Notes under the pieces: generated by a model | The model's input: only the letters and a program-made list of their open reading frames with translations | Told to the model about the DNA's origin: nothing | Database searches by the model: none | Translations under genes and position numbers: made by a program | In this document: in pieces, positions 29,714 to 38,000 of the stretch | Position numbering within the stretch: position 1 is the first letter of the stretch | Layout: each line of letters begins with the position of its first letter | Source: Gemmata massiliana | GTDB taxonomy: Bacteria > Planctomycetota > Planctomycetia > Gemmatales > Gemmataceae | Length of the DNA: 42,236 bases | Assembly (NCBI GenBank): GCA_000531095.1 | Contig: HG799466.1 | Location: 668,093 to 710,328 of the forward strand | Direction of reading: 5' to 3'

Positions 29714-32700
29714 TTAGTGGTTGAACAGGAACGCCGGGTTGTTAATGAGCGCCCAAACAAGGTCTTGGGCGCCCAGCACGCGGGCGTCGGCGGGCGGAGC
29801 GTTCGCGGTTTCGGCCGCGAGCCGGGCGTACTCCTTGTCCTGGGCCAGGTACATTTGCCGAAGCGCGTCCTTCTGAGCCGGGGTCCGCTTGTCGAGCGGC
29901 GTTTCGAGCAGCGCGAGTTGGGCCGGGCTCACCGAACTTTGCAGCTTCGGGTTCGGGTCCGACGTCACCGACAGTCGGAACTTGCCGATGGTGTGCTGCC
30001 CGCCGTACCGCTGGTCGAGGACCGCGGTGAAGTACCCGCCGGCCGGGTCACTCACCGGCTTGTCGAACTTGAAGAGCGCCGCGTTATCCACGCCGAGCCG
30101 CGGCGCGGTAGCCCAACCGGTGCCGGGGTTCCCGTCCACCGCGTTCGCGACCGGGAACGTCTCCTGCGAGAAGATCGCCGCGAGCGCCTTCAGCTTGATC
30201 GCCGTGGCGGGTGCGTCCGTCTTGTCGAACGTCTTGTACGTCAGGCGGAACTCGTTGAGCACGAAGTTCCCGTTCTCCGCCCGTCCCGGTCCCTTCGCGG
30301 GCAGCGTCGGGTCGGAGAACACATCGAGCCGCAACGCGGTGATCGGCTTATCGATCCCGGTGAGGCCGTGAATCGTGTAGAGGTCGGTGTCGGGAACCTT
30401 CCCGCCCACGAGAATCGAACCGTCCTTGTTGACCACCAATTTCGTGTCGGGCATCTGGGCCTGTGCCCGGCGAATTTCGAGCGGCGTCCACGCGGTCGGT
30501 TTCTGGGCCTTCAGCGATTCTTCCCAGGCGGCCTGTTTCGCGTCGAGCGTTTCCTTGTACGTGTTGAAGGCGTCCAGCTTCGGCTTGTACTCCGCGAGCT
30601 GCGCCGCGTGGTCGGTGGCAGCGGCCCGGATCGCGGCGATCGCGGCCTTGCGTTCTGCCGTAGACGGGAGCCGGTTCAGCACCGCGAGATAGATCTCGTC
30701 GGCCACTTTCGCGTCGTCCTTCTCGGCGAGAACGAGTTTGTTCAGCCGGTTGTTCGGGTCTTTGATGGCGTCCCCCACAACGGGGCCGTTCACCATCGCC
30801 ATGATCGGGCCGATATTCAGCCCGGTGCCGCGCTCGCACTCACACGAAGTCTCGCGCACCGGCTTGTTGAAGATGTCGAGGAACCCACCTGGCAGTTCCA
30901 CGTTACTGTCGAGCAGTTGCGCGGCCCGGGCGCCCGCGGGTAGGCCCGGCAACCGCGACTGCGACCCAGTGGCGCGGTGGATCGTGTCGAACAGCACCTC
31001 GGCCGGGAGCCGCCGCGCCAGTGCGTGGGAGTAGTTGATTTCGTCGTCTTTGTTCCACCGGTTCGTCGCGAGCGAGAGCTGGTACGTGCGGCTCTTGCAG
31101 ATCGTTTTAATGAGCTTCTGCGTGTCGAAGCTGCTCGCCACGAAGTCCGCGGTCAGCTTGTCGAGCAGTTCCGGGTTGGTCGGCGGGTTCCCGGCGCGGA
31201 TGTCGTCCACCGGCTCGATGATGCCGACGCCGAGCAGGTAGCTCCACACCCGGTTCACGTAACTCTTCGCGAAATACTGGTTCTGCGACGCGGTGATCCA
31301 CTTCGCGACTTGCTCGCGGCGCGACGCTTCCGCGGGTTGCTGCACCGACACCGGGTACGGGAAGCCCGCCTTCGCGTTCTCGCTCGTGCGGTCGTGTTTG
31401 ATCTCCCCGGACTTCAGGTCGGTGATGACCTCGACGAGCGGCTTCGCGCCCTCAACGGCGGTGCCCCCGAGTGTCTGACCACGGTACTTCGGGTCCGGCG
31501 CGCGGCCGACCTGTGCGAAGTACGCGGCGAGGCTGAAGTATTGGTCCTGGGTCCACTTCTCGAACGGGTGGTCGTGGCACTTGTTACAGTTGAACCGCAC
31601 CGCGAGGAACAGTTGCGTGGTGTTCTCCATCACCGCGTCGGGCGTGCGGAGCGTCTTGTAGTACGCGCCGGGCGGGTTTTCCACGTTCGAGCCGGTCGCG
31701 GTGAGGATCTGGTACGCGAACTTGTCGTAGGGCCGGTTCTCGGCCACCGCGTCGCGAATCCACTTGCGGAACGCGGTCGCGCCGACGTCGCCGAGGAACT
31801 TCCGGTTCACCATCAGCATGTCAGCCCATTTGTTCGACCAGTGCTCGACGAACGCATCGCTGCCGACGAGCGAATCAACCACCGCTTCGCGTTTCGCACG
31901 ACCGTCGCGGGAGTCCGCGATGAACTGCCGTACCTGCTCGCCCGTGGGTGGTAGACCCGTGAGGTCGAGGTACACGCGGCGCAGGAACGCGGCGTCGTCC
32001 GCGAGGTCGCTGGCCTGAACCTTGACCTTCTTCAGTTTCACATCGACCAGATCGTCGACGTAGTTGTAAACGGGTTGCTGTTTCCACTCGAAGCCCGAGC
32101 GGTCGCCCATGATGACGATCGTGCTCGCGGCGTAGGCCCCCTCGTAGCGGGCGAGCATCGTGGTCTCACCGCGGCGCAGCGTGGCGACCACGCCGGTCTT
32201 GTCCACAGTGGCCACTTCCGTGTTGCTGCTCTCGATGAACGTTTCGGCGGTCACGTCGCGGCGCCGACCGTCGGCGTAGGTGGCGACCGCGGCGAACTGC
32301 TGCTTCTGCCCGATACGCCCGACGATCGGGTTCTTCGGGAAGATCTCGAGCGACGTCACGCGGACCGCGTCGAGGTCGAGTTTCAGTCCCTGGGAGATCC
32401 ACTTGCGCACGAGTTCGTAGTTCGGGTCACCGGCCGTCATCGTTACCCCGCCCTGGTGCGGCACGGCCCCGGCCGGTTTCATCAGCATGAGGCTCTTTTC
32501 CGGTGCGGCGCGGTTGAACCGGCGCCCTTCGAGATCATCCGTGAGCGCGCGGAAGTCGTACAGCGGGTCGTACCCGCGGAGCGAGAGCTTGAACCCGTTC
32601 TTACCGGCTTGCGCGCCGTGACAGGTACCCGCGTTGCACCCGAGTTTGCTGAGAACCGGTTGCACGTCGGTGACGAAACTGACCGGCTTGTCCGCGCCGA

Positions 32701-33037
32701 ATCCCTTCACGGTTACAGGCACTTTGGCCGCAAGCCCGGCGAGCGACACTTCAACATCGCCAGCGCCGTCGGCGGTGGGCCGGACCAGCCCGGCGTTCAC
32801 AGCCGCGATTTTTGGCACAGCCACTTTCGCGATGCGCGTCACATCGACGGCTTCGCCGGTATCGAGCGTCGCGGTCACGAGCAGTTGCGAGTACGCGAAC
32901 GGCCCGCTCAGTTCGATCGTCGCGGGGCGCACGTCGAGTTTCGTAACCTTCGCCCCATCAGGCAATTTCTCTTGCGCGAGGGCCGGCAGCGCACCGCCGA
33001 TCAGAAGCAGGGCCGCAATATATCGGTAGGGCTTCAT
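29714..33037 (-). CDS. Second DUF1549/DUF1553 cytochrome protein with Ig-like domains
   Basis: 1107 residues from the ATG at 33037. A signal peptide (YIAALLLIGGALPALA) is followed by an Ig-like domain (about 30-112). A cytochrome-like motif LGCNAGTCHGAQAGKNGF follows, with Cys134, Cys139 and His140, a CX4CH instead of CX2CH, then FKLSLRGYDPLYDFRAL. A second Ig/BIG2-like domain (FPKNPIVGRIGQKQQFAAVA) leads into DUF1549 (DLTGLPPTGEQVRQFIADSR) and CNKCHDHPFEKWTQDQYF, with CxxCH at 484-488. DUF1553 starts near VNRVWSYLLGVGIIEPVDD. The Ig domains are usual in the longer subtype. It is on the opposite strand to the other PSD1 gene, with the cytochrome-WD40 gene upstream. Confidence 0.95.
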   Translation of the reverse strand: MKPYRYIAALLLIGGALPALAQEKLPDGAKVTKLDVRPATIELSGPFAYSQLLVTATLDTGEAVDVTRIAKVAVPKIAAVNAGLVRPTADGAGDVEVSLAGLAAKVPVTVKGFGADKPVSFVTDVQPVLSKLGCNAGTCHGAQAGKNGFKLSLRGYDPLYDFRALTDDLEGRRFNRAAPEKSLMLMKPAGAVPHQGGVTMTAGDPNYELVRKWISQGLKLDLDAVRVTSLEIFPKNPIVGRIGQKQQFAAVATYADGRRRDVTAETFIESSNTEVATVDKTGVVATLRRGETTMLARYEGAYAASTIVIMGDRSGFEWKQQPVYNYVDDLVDVKLKKVKVQASDLADDAAFLRRVYLDLTGLPPTGEQVRQFIADSRDGRAKREAVVDSLVGSDAFVEHWSNKWADMLMVNRKFLGDVGATAFRKWIRDAVAENRPYDKFAYQILTATGSNVENPPGAYYKTLRTPDAVMENTTQLFLAVRFNCNKCHDHPFEKWTQDQYFSLAAYFAQVGRAPDPKYRGQTLGGTAVEGAKPLVEVITDLKSGEIKHDRTSENAKAGFPYPVSVQQPAEASRREQVAKWITASQNQYFAKSYVNRVWSYLLGVGIIEPVDDIRAGNPPTNPELLDKLTADFVASSFDTQKLIKTICKSRTYQLSLATNRWNKDDEINYSHALARRLPAEVLFDTIHRATGSQSRLPGLPAGARAAQLLDSNVELPGGFLDIFNKPVRETSCECERGTGLNIGPIMAMVNGPVVGDAIKDPNNRLNKLVLAEKDDAKVADEIYLAVLNRLPSTAERKAAIAAIRAAATDHAAQLAEYKPKLDAFNTYKETLDAKQAAWEESLKAQKPTAWTPLEIRRAQAQMPDTKLVVNKDGSILVGGKVPDTDLYTIHGLTGIDKPITALRLDVFSDPTLPAKGPGRAENGNFVLNEFRLTYKTFDKTDAPATAIKLKALAAIFSQETFPVANAVDGNPGTGWATAPRLGVDNAALFKFDKPVSDPAGGYFTAVLDQRYGGQHTIGKFRLSVTSDPNPKLQSSVSPAQLALLETPLDKRTPAQKDALRQMYLAQDKEYARLAAETANAPPADARVLGAQDLVWALINNPAFLFNH

Positions 33038-33208
33038 GGAAGAGGTCTCGGGGGTCGGTTGTCGGTTAAACGCCCGGGGACCGGGCGGGGTTGGTTTGGT
33101 CGGGTCGAAAGAATCCCGGGTCGTATTCCGGATGAATCCCATCGCACCCGATGGGGTGCATCACGGGTGTTGGTATCGGCGCCCGTTGCATCCGCGGGTG
33201 TTGTCCCC

Positions 33209-33425
33209 GCCCGTATCCCAGGGCGTTGCCCTGGGCTGGGGAATCGCACCCGTTCGGGTGCCGGGTATTTCAGGCCGTAGGTCTTAACTTCGTATAATGT
33301 ATGCTATACGAAGTTATTACGGGGCTGGGGAATCGCACCCGTTCGGGTGCCGGGTATTTCAGGCCGAAGGTCTGAGATTCCCCAGCCCAGGGCAACGCCC
33401 TGGGGTTCATCCGGGATACGGGCGA
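33209..33425. repeat. Third nested palindromic element, interrupted by linker
   Basis: The left arm CCCAGGGCGTTGCCCTGGGC (33218-33237, followed by TGGGGAATC) is the inverted copy of the arm at 33376-33404 (GATTCCCCAGCCCAGGGC, then AACGCCCTGGG). Each arm contains the palindrome CCCAGGGC-GTT-GCCCTGGG. Between the arms GCACCCGTTCGGGTGC is another palindrome. The inner part is present twice (33233-33284 and 33322-33373; 52 bases, one mismatch), with the linker between. Removing one copy and the linker restores a single regular hairpin, so the element is natural but the duplication is not. Its right end abuts the stop codon at 33435. Confidence 0.8.
33285..33321 (+). other. loxP / 454 Titanium paired-end linker, assembly artefact
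   Basis: From 33285 the sequence reads the loxP left arm minus its first base (TAACTTCGTATA), the asymmetric spacer ATGTATGC (33297-33304) and the complete right arm TATACGAAGTTAT (33305-33317), then TACG. Thirty-three of the 34 loxP bases are identical, and the trailing TACG is the end of the 454 Titanium paired-end linker as I recall it. In one frame it encodes MYAIRSYYG, a peptide known as a linker contaminant in protein databases. There is no Cre recombinase in the window. Confidence 0.95.
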
Positions 33426-33434
33426 GGCCCTGGT

Positions 33435-34925
33435 TCATTTCGATTTCGTCGGCAGCACGACGAAGCTCTGGAGGAGCTTGCCGGTCGCCGCGTTGTGGAG
33501 CCACACGGTGCCGTCGAAGCCCGCGGACGCGATGATCGCCCCTCCGGGGTGCCATGCGACCGCGTACACGGGGCCGGTCACCTGTTCGCACACGATCTTC
33601 GAGCCGGTGTTCGCGTCGTACACCCGCACTTCGCCTTTTCCGTCGAGGCTGCTGACGGCGGCGAATTTCGTGCCCTCGGAGTTGAACGCGAGCGTCGAGA
33701 TGCGGCCCGGCATGGCTTCATATTCGCGCACCTTGTTCGAGTCGTCGCCGATCTCGCGCTTCACCTCGCGGTGCATCTTGTAGAGGCGCGGGCGCCCGTC
33801 GGACCCGGCCGCGATGATCTCGTCGTACACGTTCGGCTTCGCGCCGGGCGTGTCCACGGGCACCTTCTGCATGCGCTTCGGCAGCGTGAGCGTGTGGGCC
33901 GTCGACCACAAACGGACCTTCGCGGAAGAGTTCATCGGCCGGCGGTCGACGGCCATCAACCCGCCCTTCAGCGCGCCGGGAGTGATGCTCGTCACGTTGT
34001 CCACGAAGCGCTGTGTGGGGACTTCGGTGAGCTTCATACTCATGTCGCGCCCAACGGAAACGAGGTGCAGGCCGTCCTGCGAGAAGACGGTTCCGAGCAC
34101 CCAGTCCGAGTGCGTTCCCATCTGGAGGATCTGTTTTCCGCTCGTCGCGTCCACGGCGCGAACGGTGTTGTCCGAGCAGCCGAACGCGAGTGCTTTGCTG
34201 TCGGGCGACCAACTCACGCCGTAGAGCGTGTCGAACGTGACCGGCGCGGAAATCAGGAGCTTCTCGGACTCGGGGTTCCACACCTGTACTTCACCGAAGC
34301 GCCCGGGGGCGCCACCGACCGCCGCGAGCTTCTTGCCGTCCGGCGAGTACGCGATCGACTGCACGCGCTCCGAAATGCCGATGAGCCGCGCCTTGAGCGC
34401 GTACCCAGCCGTGTCGTAGACCAGGATCTCGTGGTAGCCGGTTGTGGCGAGCGCCTTGCCGTCCGGTGAGAACGCCAGCCCGGTCACGACCGGCGGGGCG
34501 GAATACTTCGGCGGATTCAAGGCGTCGACCACAACGGCCCGCGCGCTCGCGGGGGTGTCATCGACCGCCCCCTGTGCGATCCAGTCCGTGATGAGTTTGA
34601 TCTGGATCGGGTTGAGCGGGTCGCGGCCCTTCGGCATCTCGGCCTTGCCGTTGTCGAGCACCTTGATTTGCTCGACGAGGTGGCTAGCCGCGGGCTTCCC
34701 CGCGACGACGCCGACCTTTCCGCGATCACCGGGTTTGAGCAGGTCGGCGTGCGTGGTCATGACGTACCCGCCGAGCGGCTTCGCGGGCTGGTGGCAGCCG
34801 TTGCAGTGCTGCTGGAAGATCGGGCGCACGTCCTTGAAGTAACTCACCTTCGCGGGTTCATCGGCGCGAGCACTGACCGGAAACGAAGTTACAGCGAGAG
34901 CAAAAAGAGCGTAACGAATCCGCAT
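33435..34925 (-). CDS. PSCyt1 cytochrome c domain fused to WD40 repeats
   Basis: 496 residues from the ATG at 34925. A signal peptide (YALFALAVTSFPVSARA) precedes a PSCyt1 domain: FKDVRPIFQQHCNGCHQPA, with CxxCH at 41-45, then LLKPGDRGKVGVVAGKP and LITDWIAQGAVDD. From about residue 150 there are about seven WD40-like blades: AFSPDGKALATTGYHEILVY, SIAYSPDGKKLAAVGG, VSWSPDSKALAFGCSDNTV, SQDGLHLVSVGRDMSMKL, and AVAWHPGGAIIASAGFDGTV near the end. This is a common planctomycete combination, probably exported and haem-bearing. It is followed on the same strand by the DUF1549/1553 gene, 398 bases away across the repeat and linker, so cotranscription is uncertain. The stop at 33435 lies directly at the repeat. 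Confidence 0.9.
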   Translation of the reverse strand: MRIRYALFALAVTSFPVSARADEPAKVSYFKDVRPIFQQHCNGCHQPAKPLGGYVMTTHADLLKPGDRGKVGVVAGKPAASHLVEQIKVLDNGKAEMPKGRDPLNPIQIKLITDWIAQGAVDDTPASARAVVVDALNPPKYSAPPVVTGLAFSPDGKALATTGYHEILVYDTAGYALKARLIGISERVQSIAYSPDGKKLAAVGGAPGRFGEVQVWNPESEKLLISAPVTFDTLYGVSWSPDSKALAFGCSDNTVRAVDATSGKQILQMGTHSDWVLGTVFSQDGLHLVSVGRDMSMKLTEVPTQRFVDNVTSITPGALKGGLMAVDRRPMNSSAKVRLWSTAHTLTLPKRMQKVPVDTPGAKPNVYDEIIAAGSDGRPRLYKMHREVKREIGDDSNKVREYEAMPGRISTLAFNSEGTKFAAVSSLDGKGEVRVYDANTGSKIVCEQVTGPVYAVAWHPGGAIIASAGFDGTVWLHNAATGKLLQSFVVLPTKSK

Positions 34926-35082
34926 GAATGCGAACCTCGGCGGGGAGGGCCGAAACGGGCCGGAGGTTGAGGCGGGCAGGAGTGAGTAGTGTACCAGGGC
35001 GCAAAGGCGCGGAGCAACCTGTTTCCTCGCGTAATGATACAATTGTGATCCCGATGCCCACGGGCGGCCCGCCCGCGCGAAA

Positions 35083-38000
35083 TCACGCGCCTTCCGCGTT
35101 CGCCGCGGACCGCCCAAAAAGCACATAAAGTGACGGCAACAGAAACAGATTCAGCCCCGTCGAAGTGATGAGCCCGCCGAGGATGACGACGGCGAGCGGG
35201 TACTCGATTTCCTGCCCCGGTTTGTTCCCGGTAATCGCGAGCGGGAGCAGCGCCAGTCCCGTCGCGAGCGCGGTCATGAGAATGGGCACGAGGCGCTCTT
35301 CTGCGCCGCGCAGGATCAGCCCGACGCCGAACGGAACGCCCTCTTCCGTTTCGAGGTGGCGGAAGTGACTCACGAGCATGATGCCGTTCCGCGCCGCGAT
35401 GCCCAGCACCGTGACGAACCCGACCATCGACCCGAGTGACACCACGCCGGTCGTGAGCGCGACCGCGGCCACCCCGCCGACGAGCGCGAACGGGATCGTG
35501 AGCGCGACCAGGAGCGTCGGGCGCCACGCCCCGAAATCGACGAACAGGAGCAGCACGATACCGATAAGGGCGAGGCCCGAAAGCGCGTACAGACGCCGGG
35601 TCGAGTCCTGGCGCGCCTGGTACTCGCCCAGGAACTCCGGGTGATACTCCCGCTCGAACGGTACCCGGCGCACGTTCTCCTCGATCTCGCGCGCCACCGA
35701 GCCGAGGTCGCGCCCGGACACGTTGCACGTCACGTCGAGCCGGCGGCTCGCGTTCTCGCGCCGCACCTCGTTCGGCGCGGACACGATGCGGACATCGGCA
35801 ACGTCCTTCAATCGCACCTGCGTGCCGGCTTGAACGTCGATCGGTAGGGACTGAATCGCCGTCAGGTCGGTGCGCACGTCGCGCGTGCCCCACACCACCA
35901 CGTCGAACTTCTTCTGCCCGTCGTACACCTCGCCGACCTTCAGCCCCTTCAGGAGTGCGGTGGAGGCCCGGCGCGCGTGCCCCGGGGTCAGGCCGAACTT
36001 CGCCAGGTCGTCCGGGCGCGGGCGCACCTCGATCTGCGCGACCAGCACCTGCGGTTCCACCTTCAGGTTCGTGACACCGGGCACGTCCTTCATCGCGGCC
36101 TCGACCTCTTTCGCCTTCGCCCGCAGTACCTCCTGGTCCGGGCCGTAGAGTCGCACAACAATGGCCCCGCTCGCGCCGGTCAGCACTTCCTTGATGCGCT
36201 CGCGCAGGTACGTCAGCAGGTCGCGGTACAGGCCCGGGTAGGCGTACACCACGTCCGCGATCTTCTTCACGCTCGGCCCGTACTCCACGTTGTCCGGAAT
36301 GCTGATCCACAGCTCGGTGAAGTTCGGACCCACGGGTTCGTCCGCCACTTCCGCCCGGCCGATGTGCGACCCGAAGTTGCGCACGAGCTTGGTCCCCTTC
36401 TCGTCTTCGAGCGCGCGTAACTGCTTGCTCGCCTCCGCGGTGACGCGGTGCATCGCCTCGATCGACGTCCCGGGCTTCTCCACGAAGTGCATCAGGAAGT
36501 CGGTTTCCTGGAAGTTCGGGAGGAACTCCTGTCCGAGTCGCGTCGCGAGTGCGGCGGTGGCCGCGAACGCCACGACCAGCGCACTGAGACACACCCACGG
36601 CCGCGCGACAAACGCCGGCAACACGGCGCGGTACCCGCGCTTCAGCACGCGCGCGAGGGGCGGGTCGTGTGCTTCGGTGTGCTTGCGGCGCGTGAGCAGC
36701 ATGTACGACATGGCCGGCGTGACCGTGAGCGCGACGAACAGTGACGCACTGATCGCGACGACGTAAGCCATTGCCAGCGGCCGGAAGAACGAACCGGCCA
36801 GTCCGTCGAGGAAGAACACCGGGAGGAACACGAGCACCACGATCATGCTCGCGTACACCACCGCCGACCGGACCTCGAGCGAGGCGGCGAGCACTACCTC
36901 GAACACCGACGGACCGCCCCCACCCGCGCCCCGCAAGCGCAACCGGCGGTCGATGTTCTCCACGTCGATGATCGCGTCGTCCACTACTTCGCCGAGGGCG
37001 ATCACCAGCCCGGCTAACACCATCGTGTTGATAGTCGCACCGGAGTACGCGAACACGAGGAGCGCGGCGACCAGCGAGAGCGGGATCGCGGTGAGGCTGA
37101 TAACGGCCGTGCGCCAGTCGAACAGGAACACGACGAGGATCACCGCGACCAGGGCGCAGCCGATCAGAAGCGCGTGGCGCAGGTTCTCCAGCGCGCGCTC
37201 GATGAACGTCGCCGGGCGAAAGATCGTCGGGTCGATCTCGACGCCCTTCAACCCGGGCCGCAGCGCCTCGATCGCGGCCTCGACTTTGCGCGTGAGTTCG
37301 AGCGTGTTCGCTTCGGGCTGTTTCTCGACGATGAGCAGAATCCCGGGACCGTCGTTGATGACCGCGTCGCCGATCGGGGGCGGCGACCCGATCCGCACCT
37401 TCGCGACGTCTTCGAGGCGCAGCGACGTTCCACCGCGGTGGTCCACCACGACCCGGCCCAAATCGCCGGCGCCGCGCACGAACGGCGCGTGGCGCACCGG
37501 GAGCCGCTGGTTCGGCGTGTCCACGAACCCGCCCGCGTCCAGGGCCACCGCGTCCGCGCTCGCCCGGGTCACCATCTCCATCGTCACAGAGTTCGCGCGC
37601 AGGTCGTCCGGGTCCACGACCACCTGATACTGCTTGTCACGCTGACCCCACACCGCGACGTTCGCCACCCCAGGCACCGACATCAACTTGGGGCGCACGG
37701 TCCACATCACGACTTCGGTCAGGTCGCGCTGCGAGAGCGTCTCCGACCAGATCCCGATCTTCATGACCCGGCTCGTGGTCGAGAGCGGTTGCAGGATGAC
37801 AGGTGGGAGCGCGACCGTCGGGAGCTGCCGCGTGACCGCGGCGACGCGCTCCTGGACCATCTGCCGCACCTTCAGCGGGTCGGTCCCGTCTTCGAGCACG
37901 AGCACCACCTGCGACAGCCCGAACACGGACTTCGAGCGCACTACCTTCACGTGCGGGACGCCGGTGAGCGCGTTCTCGATGGGCATGGTGACGAGCGATT

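Follow-up and report, generated by a model that had tools for sequence, protein, structure and literature searches.

Features of the locus

The stretch of Gemmata massiliana DNA that was analysed (42,236 nucleotides, C5:668093–710328; hereafter the window) belongs to a genome assembly of 9,269,192 bases in 22 contigs, with a GC content of 64.27% in 1.2 Mb sampled from it. Between two genes on the minus strand, an intergenic hairpin element encloses a loxP-like stretch and a short direct duplication. The features, in window coordinates, are the following.

29714–33142 (−): gene for a PSCyt2 (DUF1549)/PSD1 (DUF1553) protein, untouched by the linker
33206–33415 (no strand): native hairpin element between the genes, which linker and duplication have split and lengthened; its arms are 33206–33257 and 33364–33415 (inverted repeat I1)
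33233–33284 (+): left copy of the 52-base duplicated flank; end of the left contig or read half (repeat; comparison with genome G008)
33285–33321 (+): 454 Titanium paired-end (loxP) linker, bases 6–42, almost certainly an artefact; exact match, one of 64 sites, missing at the orthologous locus of G008
33297–34469 (+): spurious open reading frame (MYAIRSYYG...) with its start codon within the linker, antisense to the PSCyt1/WD40 gene
33322–33373 (+): right copy of the 52-base flank; start of the right contig or read half; one copy in G008 (L189:1501–1552)
33435–35126 (−): gene for a PSCyt1 and WD40 repeat protein, untouched by the linker

No Pfam match was obtained for the open reading frame at an E value of 0.001. 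This result, together with the position of its start codon and its antisense course, agrees with an earlier reading of the DNA made from the letters alone (the sequence-only reading), in which the predicted protein was called an artefact.

Match to loxP and to the 454 linker

The window was compared with the 42-nt loxP linker of 454 Titanium paired-end libraries in the form that we take to be its sequence. Bases 6–42 of this linker are identical, letter for letter, to 33285–33321 (+), a stretch bounded by GGTCT directly on its 5′ side and by GGGCTGGGG directly on its 3′ side. The linker has TCGTA where the window has GGTCT; because these five preceding bases are not linker, the window copy is truncated, and it differs from the Roche 454 GS FLX Titanium paired-end linker in being without the first five bases. 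The assumed linker sequence is corroborated by other genome records, in which 118 of the 128 distinct contexts of the 37-mer have TCGTA, the linker start, directly before it.

A single loxP match is present in the window, at 33284–33317 (+), and none of 100 shuffles contained one (six spacer positions were left open). It agrees with loxP of bacteriophage P1 at 33 of 34 bases, over the two 13-base arms and the canonical asymmetric 8-base spacer ATGTATGC; the sole mismatch, read from the letters, is a T for A at the first base. The window differs from P1 loxP in that its last bases are those of the linker (CG after TTATTA). Both the 33/34 match with an asymmetric spacer and the fit of the following bases to the 454 Titanium linker had been noted in the sequence-only reading, and both were confirmed letter by letter.

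The orthologous locus and the hairpin element

In G008, a same-genus genome that consists of one contig, the orthologous locus (L189) matches the window in order and orientation and is contiguous and linker-free. The left window flank can be aligned to it as far as L189:1552 (97%) and the right flank from L189:1501 onwards (93%), and the two flanks thus overlap in G008 by exactly the 52 duplicated bases, L189:1501–1552, which are present there in single copy. In the window these bases stand 5′ of the linker and are repeated 3′ of it with one difference, at 33278, where the left copy has T and the right copy, G008 and G012 all have A; because the two genomes agree with the right copy, the left copy probably has a base error. 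G012 likewise has the element without interruption.

Since G008 holds the 52 bases once and without the linker, 89 bases of the window (37 of linker and 52 duplicated) are spurious, and the assembly error is larger than the linker because the flank is duplicated too. As judged by this sequence comparison, the join across the linker is right in order and orientation and is not a misjoin. The earlier claim that the contig is joined across the linker is accordingly kept, refined by G008 to a join of correct order and orientation with 52 bases duplicated besides.

Both copies of the flank sit in a native hairpin-forming element that the sequence-only reading had not mentioned. Its intact copy in G008 folds at −101.9 kcal/mol, compared with a mean of −60.3 for shuffled sequences (z = −9.7). 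Loci with the element are 33206–33415 of the window, L189:1484–1586 and L190; among the matches listed are partial copies from this genome and from several others of its genus, and the corresponding locus of G012 has the element inverted with respect to the flanks. The left flank ends just 5′ of the 3′ arm and the right flank begins within the 5′ arm; because the flanks stop and start at the arms, a sequencing or assembly break in a strong hairpin would fit, and the native stable hairpin probably caused the break. A tentative possibility is that this planctomycete hairpin, a dispersed repeat whose arms measure roughly 30 bases or more, is an uncharacterised mobile or invertible palindromic element.

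Linker copies in this assembly and in other genomes

A search of the whole assembly for the linker, which had been proposed as a check in the sequence-only reading, gave 39 matches to the 37-mer (at most three mismatches), 32 to a 17-base piece from the 5′ part of the linker and 59 to a 17-base core piece (at most one mismatch). Alignment of the linker to the stretches around these matches gave at least 64 distinct sites, complete or truncated, on 13 contigs; the number is a lower bound, with alignments scoring below 14 and at least one further linker match (C1:577513–577554) omitted. The complete exact 42-mer is present at nine of the 64, and the remaining sites show truncation at either end (the shortest is a 17-base piece, L080) or single-base errors, including one-base insertions and deletions. 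Three linkers directly abut N runs. An N run lies within 30 bases of the linker at 9/64 sites (0.1 expected) and within 168 bases, the largest distance seen, at 23/64 (0.6 expected), the expectations being taken from 39,612 control points in the same stretches.

loxP with up to two mismatches, present in this genome, was found in none of 197 other genomes sampled from the class. Many copies in the one assembly and none in relatives (64 sites; 0/197) is the distribution that was looked for in a library linker. Other genome records contain the exact 37-mer in no fewer than 103 stretches, and the 80 of these that were listed come from 11 organisms, among them Paracaedibacter, a Rickettsia MAG, Legionella tunisiensis, Clostridium, Kitasatospora, Agrobacterium and Sediminibacterium. 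Twenty-nine of these 80 stretches are whole contigs; of the 38 matches in them, 22 fall no more than 200 bases from an end, where 2.9 would be expected.

Geometry of the flanking sequences

In 454 paired-end reads the molecule has been circularised, and the sequence after the linker therefore comes from upstream, on the same strand, of the sequence before it. Second copies of the 20-base words touching the linker (gap of at most five bases) were sought around each of the 64 sites, in stretches reaching as far as 9.5 kb to either side. Such copies were found at 15 of the 64 sites, compared with 4 of 254 control points 3–4 kb away; at the other 49 sites there was none within these stretches. All 11 copies at least 500 bases away showed the strand and direction of a circularised mate pair, right pieces recurring upstream (6/6) and left pieces downstream (5/5), at distances of 846–6104 bases (median 2208); one of them (L022, −1818) lies in a locally repetitive stretch, and with it omitted the agreement is 10/10. 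Three of the four short-range copies agreed in direction, including that of the window's own linker, which enters this comparison through a short-range restart alone (offset −89); the fourth (L022) has the opposite direction and is also in a locally repetitive stretch. Flanks of the kind left by a circularised mate pair were thus present in 11/11 distant and 3/4 short-range cases.

The right piece at L028 occurs at exactly two places genome-wide, 2208 bases apart on one strand, and in both G008 and G012 its counterpart likewise lies at a distance of some 2.1 kb. At L036 about 40 native bases, kept in G008 and G012, are replaced by the linker, and at L039 the linker is accompanied by a duplication of 142–145 bases. 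Within 150 bases of the linker, opposite-strand copies of 21–29 bases were seen at L011, L062 and L064 and in the window's own hairpin, and short copies (21–29 bases) in the other direction at L035 and L042. A scan for direct copies of at least 20 bases within 400 bases was weak (6/64 sites against 2/128 control points), the wider scan being the informative one. As a test, the geometry (the right piece restarts upstream, the left recurs downstream) offers a simple means of revealing such artefacts that does not need the reads.

Origin of the loxP-like stretch

The loxP-like stretch is almost certainly a remnant of untrimmed synthetic 454 Titanium paired-end linker, that is, a sequencing artefact. 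Untrimmed mate-pair linker had been the proposal of the sequence-only reading, and the 64 sites, the absence from 197 relatives and the linker-free locus of G008 all bear it out. The synthetic loxP linker marks the circularisation junction of a library molecule; 37 of its bases would have been left untrimmed, and the consensus would have taken up a read containing them, or the end of a contig made from such a read. Two contig or read ends overlapping by 52 bases in the hairpin would have been abutted through the linker and left unmerged, and this placement, instead of merging, would have added the 89 bases. The overlap itself may reflect either a pair of contig ends that were not merged or a single circularised molecule of short length.

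The available text of the Gemmata massiliana genome paper describes 3-kb paired-end and shotgun XL+ libraries on 454 Titanium, assembled with Newbler 2.8 at 22.4× into 417 contigs in 22 scaffolds of 9.249 Mb with 64.07% GC (PMC4672568). This published 454 paired-end assembly fits a linker origin and is presumably the one studied here; the two differ in length by 20 kb. Among the titles listed in literature searches none dealt with linker residues in finished assemblies, although this does not prove that there is no such paper.

Three other explanations were weighed. That the linker joins two non-neighbouring loci in a chimera is very improbable here: linkers at other sites do touch sequence that recurs 0.8–6.1 kb away, but the two window flanks are adjacent in G008, with order and strand unchanged, and a misjoin at the window locus was rejected because this flank mapping contradicts it.

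A genuine loxP, acquired from a P1-like phage-plasmid or through some other horizontal transfer, is more improbable still. The natural loxP of P1, P7 and their relatives shares up to linker bases 4–40 at 100% identity, and linker matches occur in 673 plasmid records, 610 of them from Escherichia. Because of this shared part the window copy exceeds P1 by its last two bases (CG) alone, and the case consequently rests on the genome-wide copies and the uninterrupted locus. A natural site would hardly be expected to occur dispersed over one assembly 64 times or more, in many cases cut short or close to N runs, nor to carry the 3′ CG and, elsewhere in the assembly, the 5′ TCG, which are linker bases outside the part shared with P1; it is also absent from the 197 sampled relatives of the class, and the locus is uninterrupted in G008. 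No cognate Cre was found in the genome: the Cre query led to three recombinases of 27–30% identity, none of them close, with the best match 30% identical over residues 37–327. Judging from the G008 locus and the linker origin of the copies, the stretch would not reside in genomic DNA. The dispersed copies, the uninterrupted locus and the absence from relatives uphold the rejection of a natural loxP that the earlier reading had made.

Least probable is a short mobile element or dispersed repeat of the species with a chance resemblance to loxP, which would account for 64 dispersed sites and for the direct repeat flanking the window copy, but which was rejected because unrelated genomes hold the identical sequence: the same 37-mer is found in Legionella, Clostridium, Kitasatospora, Agrobacterium and other shotgun records, where it piles up near contig ends (whole contigs were checked), the distant flank copies obey mate-pair geometry, there is no target-site duplication of fixed length (short-range offsets are 89, 127, 135 and 226, with none at most sites) and the linker at L036 occupies the place of native bases.

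As linker remnant, the loxP stretch itself is not a real feature and holds nothing new biologically. Its importance lies in the assembly, where laboratory sequence is present at at least 64 places, with flank duplications, recurrences at kilobase distances and native bases replaced at one site that was checked against relatives; gene models and comparative work therefore need care near the linkers.

Further observations on linker copies

At 13 of the 64 sites (L041, L042, L044, L048, L051, L059, L062, L067, L068, L069, L070, L072 and L073) the match stops at linker base 38, with G in the position of the linker's T; at 11 of these sites the base after that is not N, and at 10 of the 11 it is C. 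These copies are perhaps a second adaptor form. Tandem linkers are present at L018 (C5:600548–600697; 113 bases from start to start) and L022 (C6:134062–134164; 66 bases), the pattern expected if circularised molecules were short or contig ends were stacked.

Tandem copies were also seen outside this genome, in two short scaffolds of Litoribacter populi XAAS-A1 (L100 and L125) with four 37-mers each at spacings of 129 and 123 bases, respectively. In the plasmid collection, an 11.85-Mb record of Nonomuraea gerenzanensis (NZ_LT559118.1) has six linker places, the best of which is a complete 42-mer. The 37-mer also occurs in four viral-contig stretches. The published record of Lactococcus phage Q33 contains linker bases 1–41 (JX564242.1, 17544–17584; L196:2501–2541) in place of about 37 bases that phage BM13 has near the 3′ end of the portal gene, and the annotated Q33 portal gene terminates within the linker.
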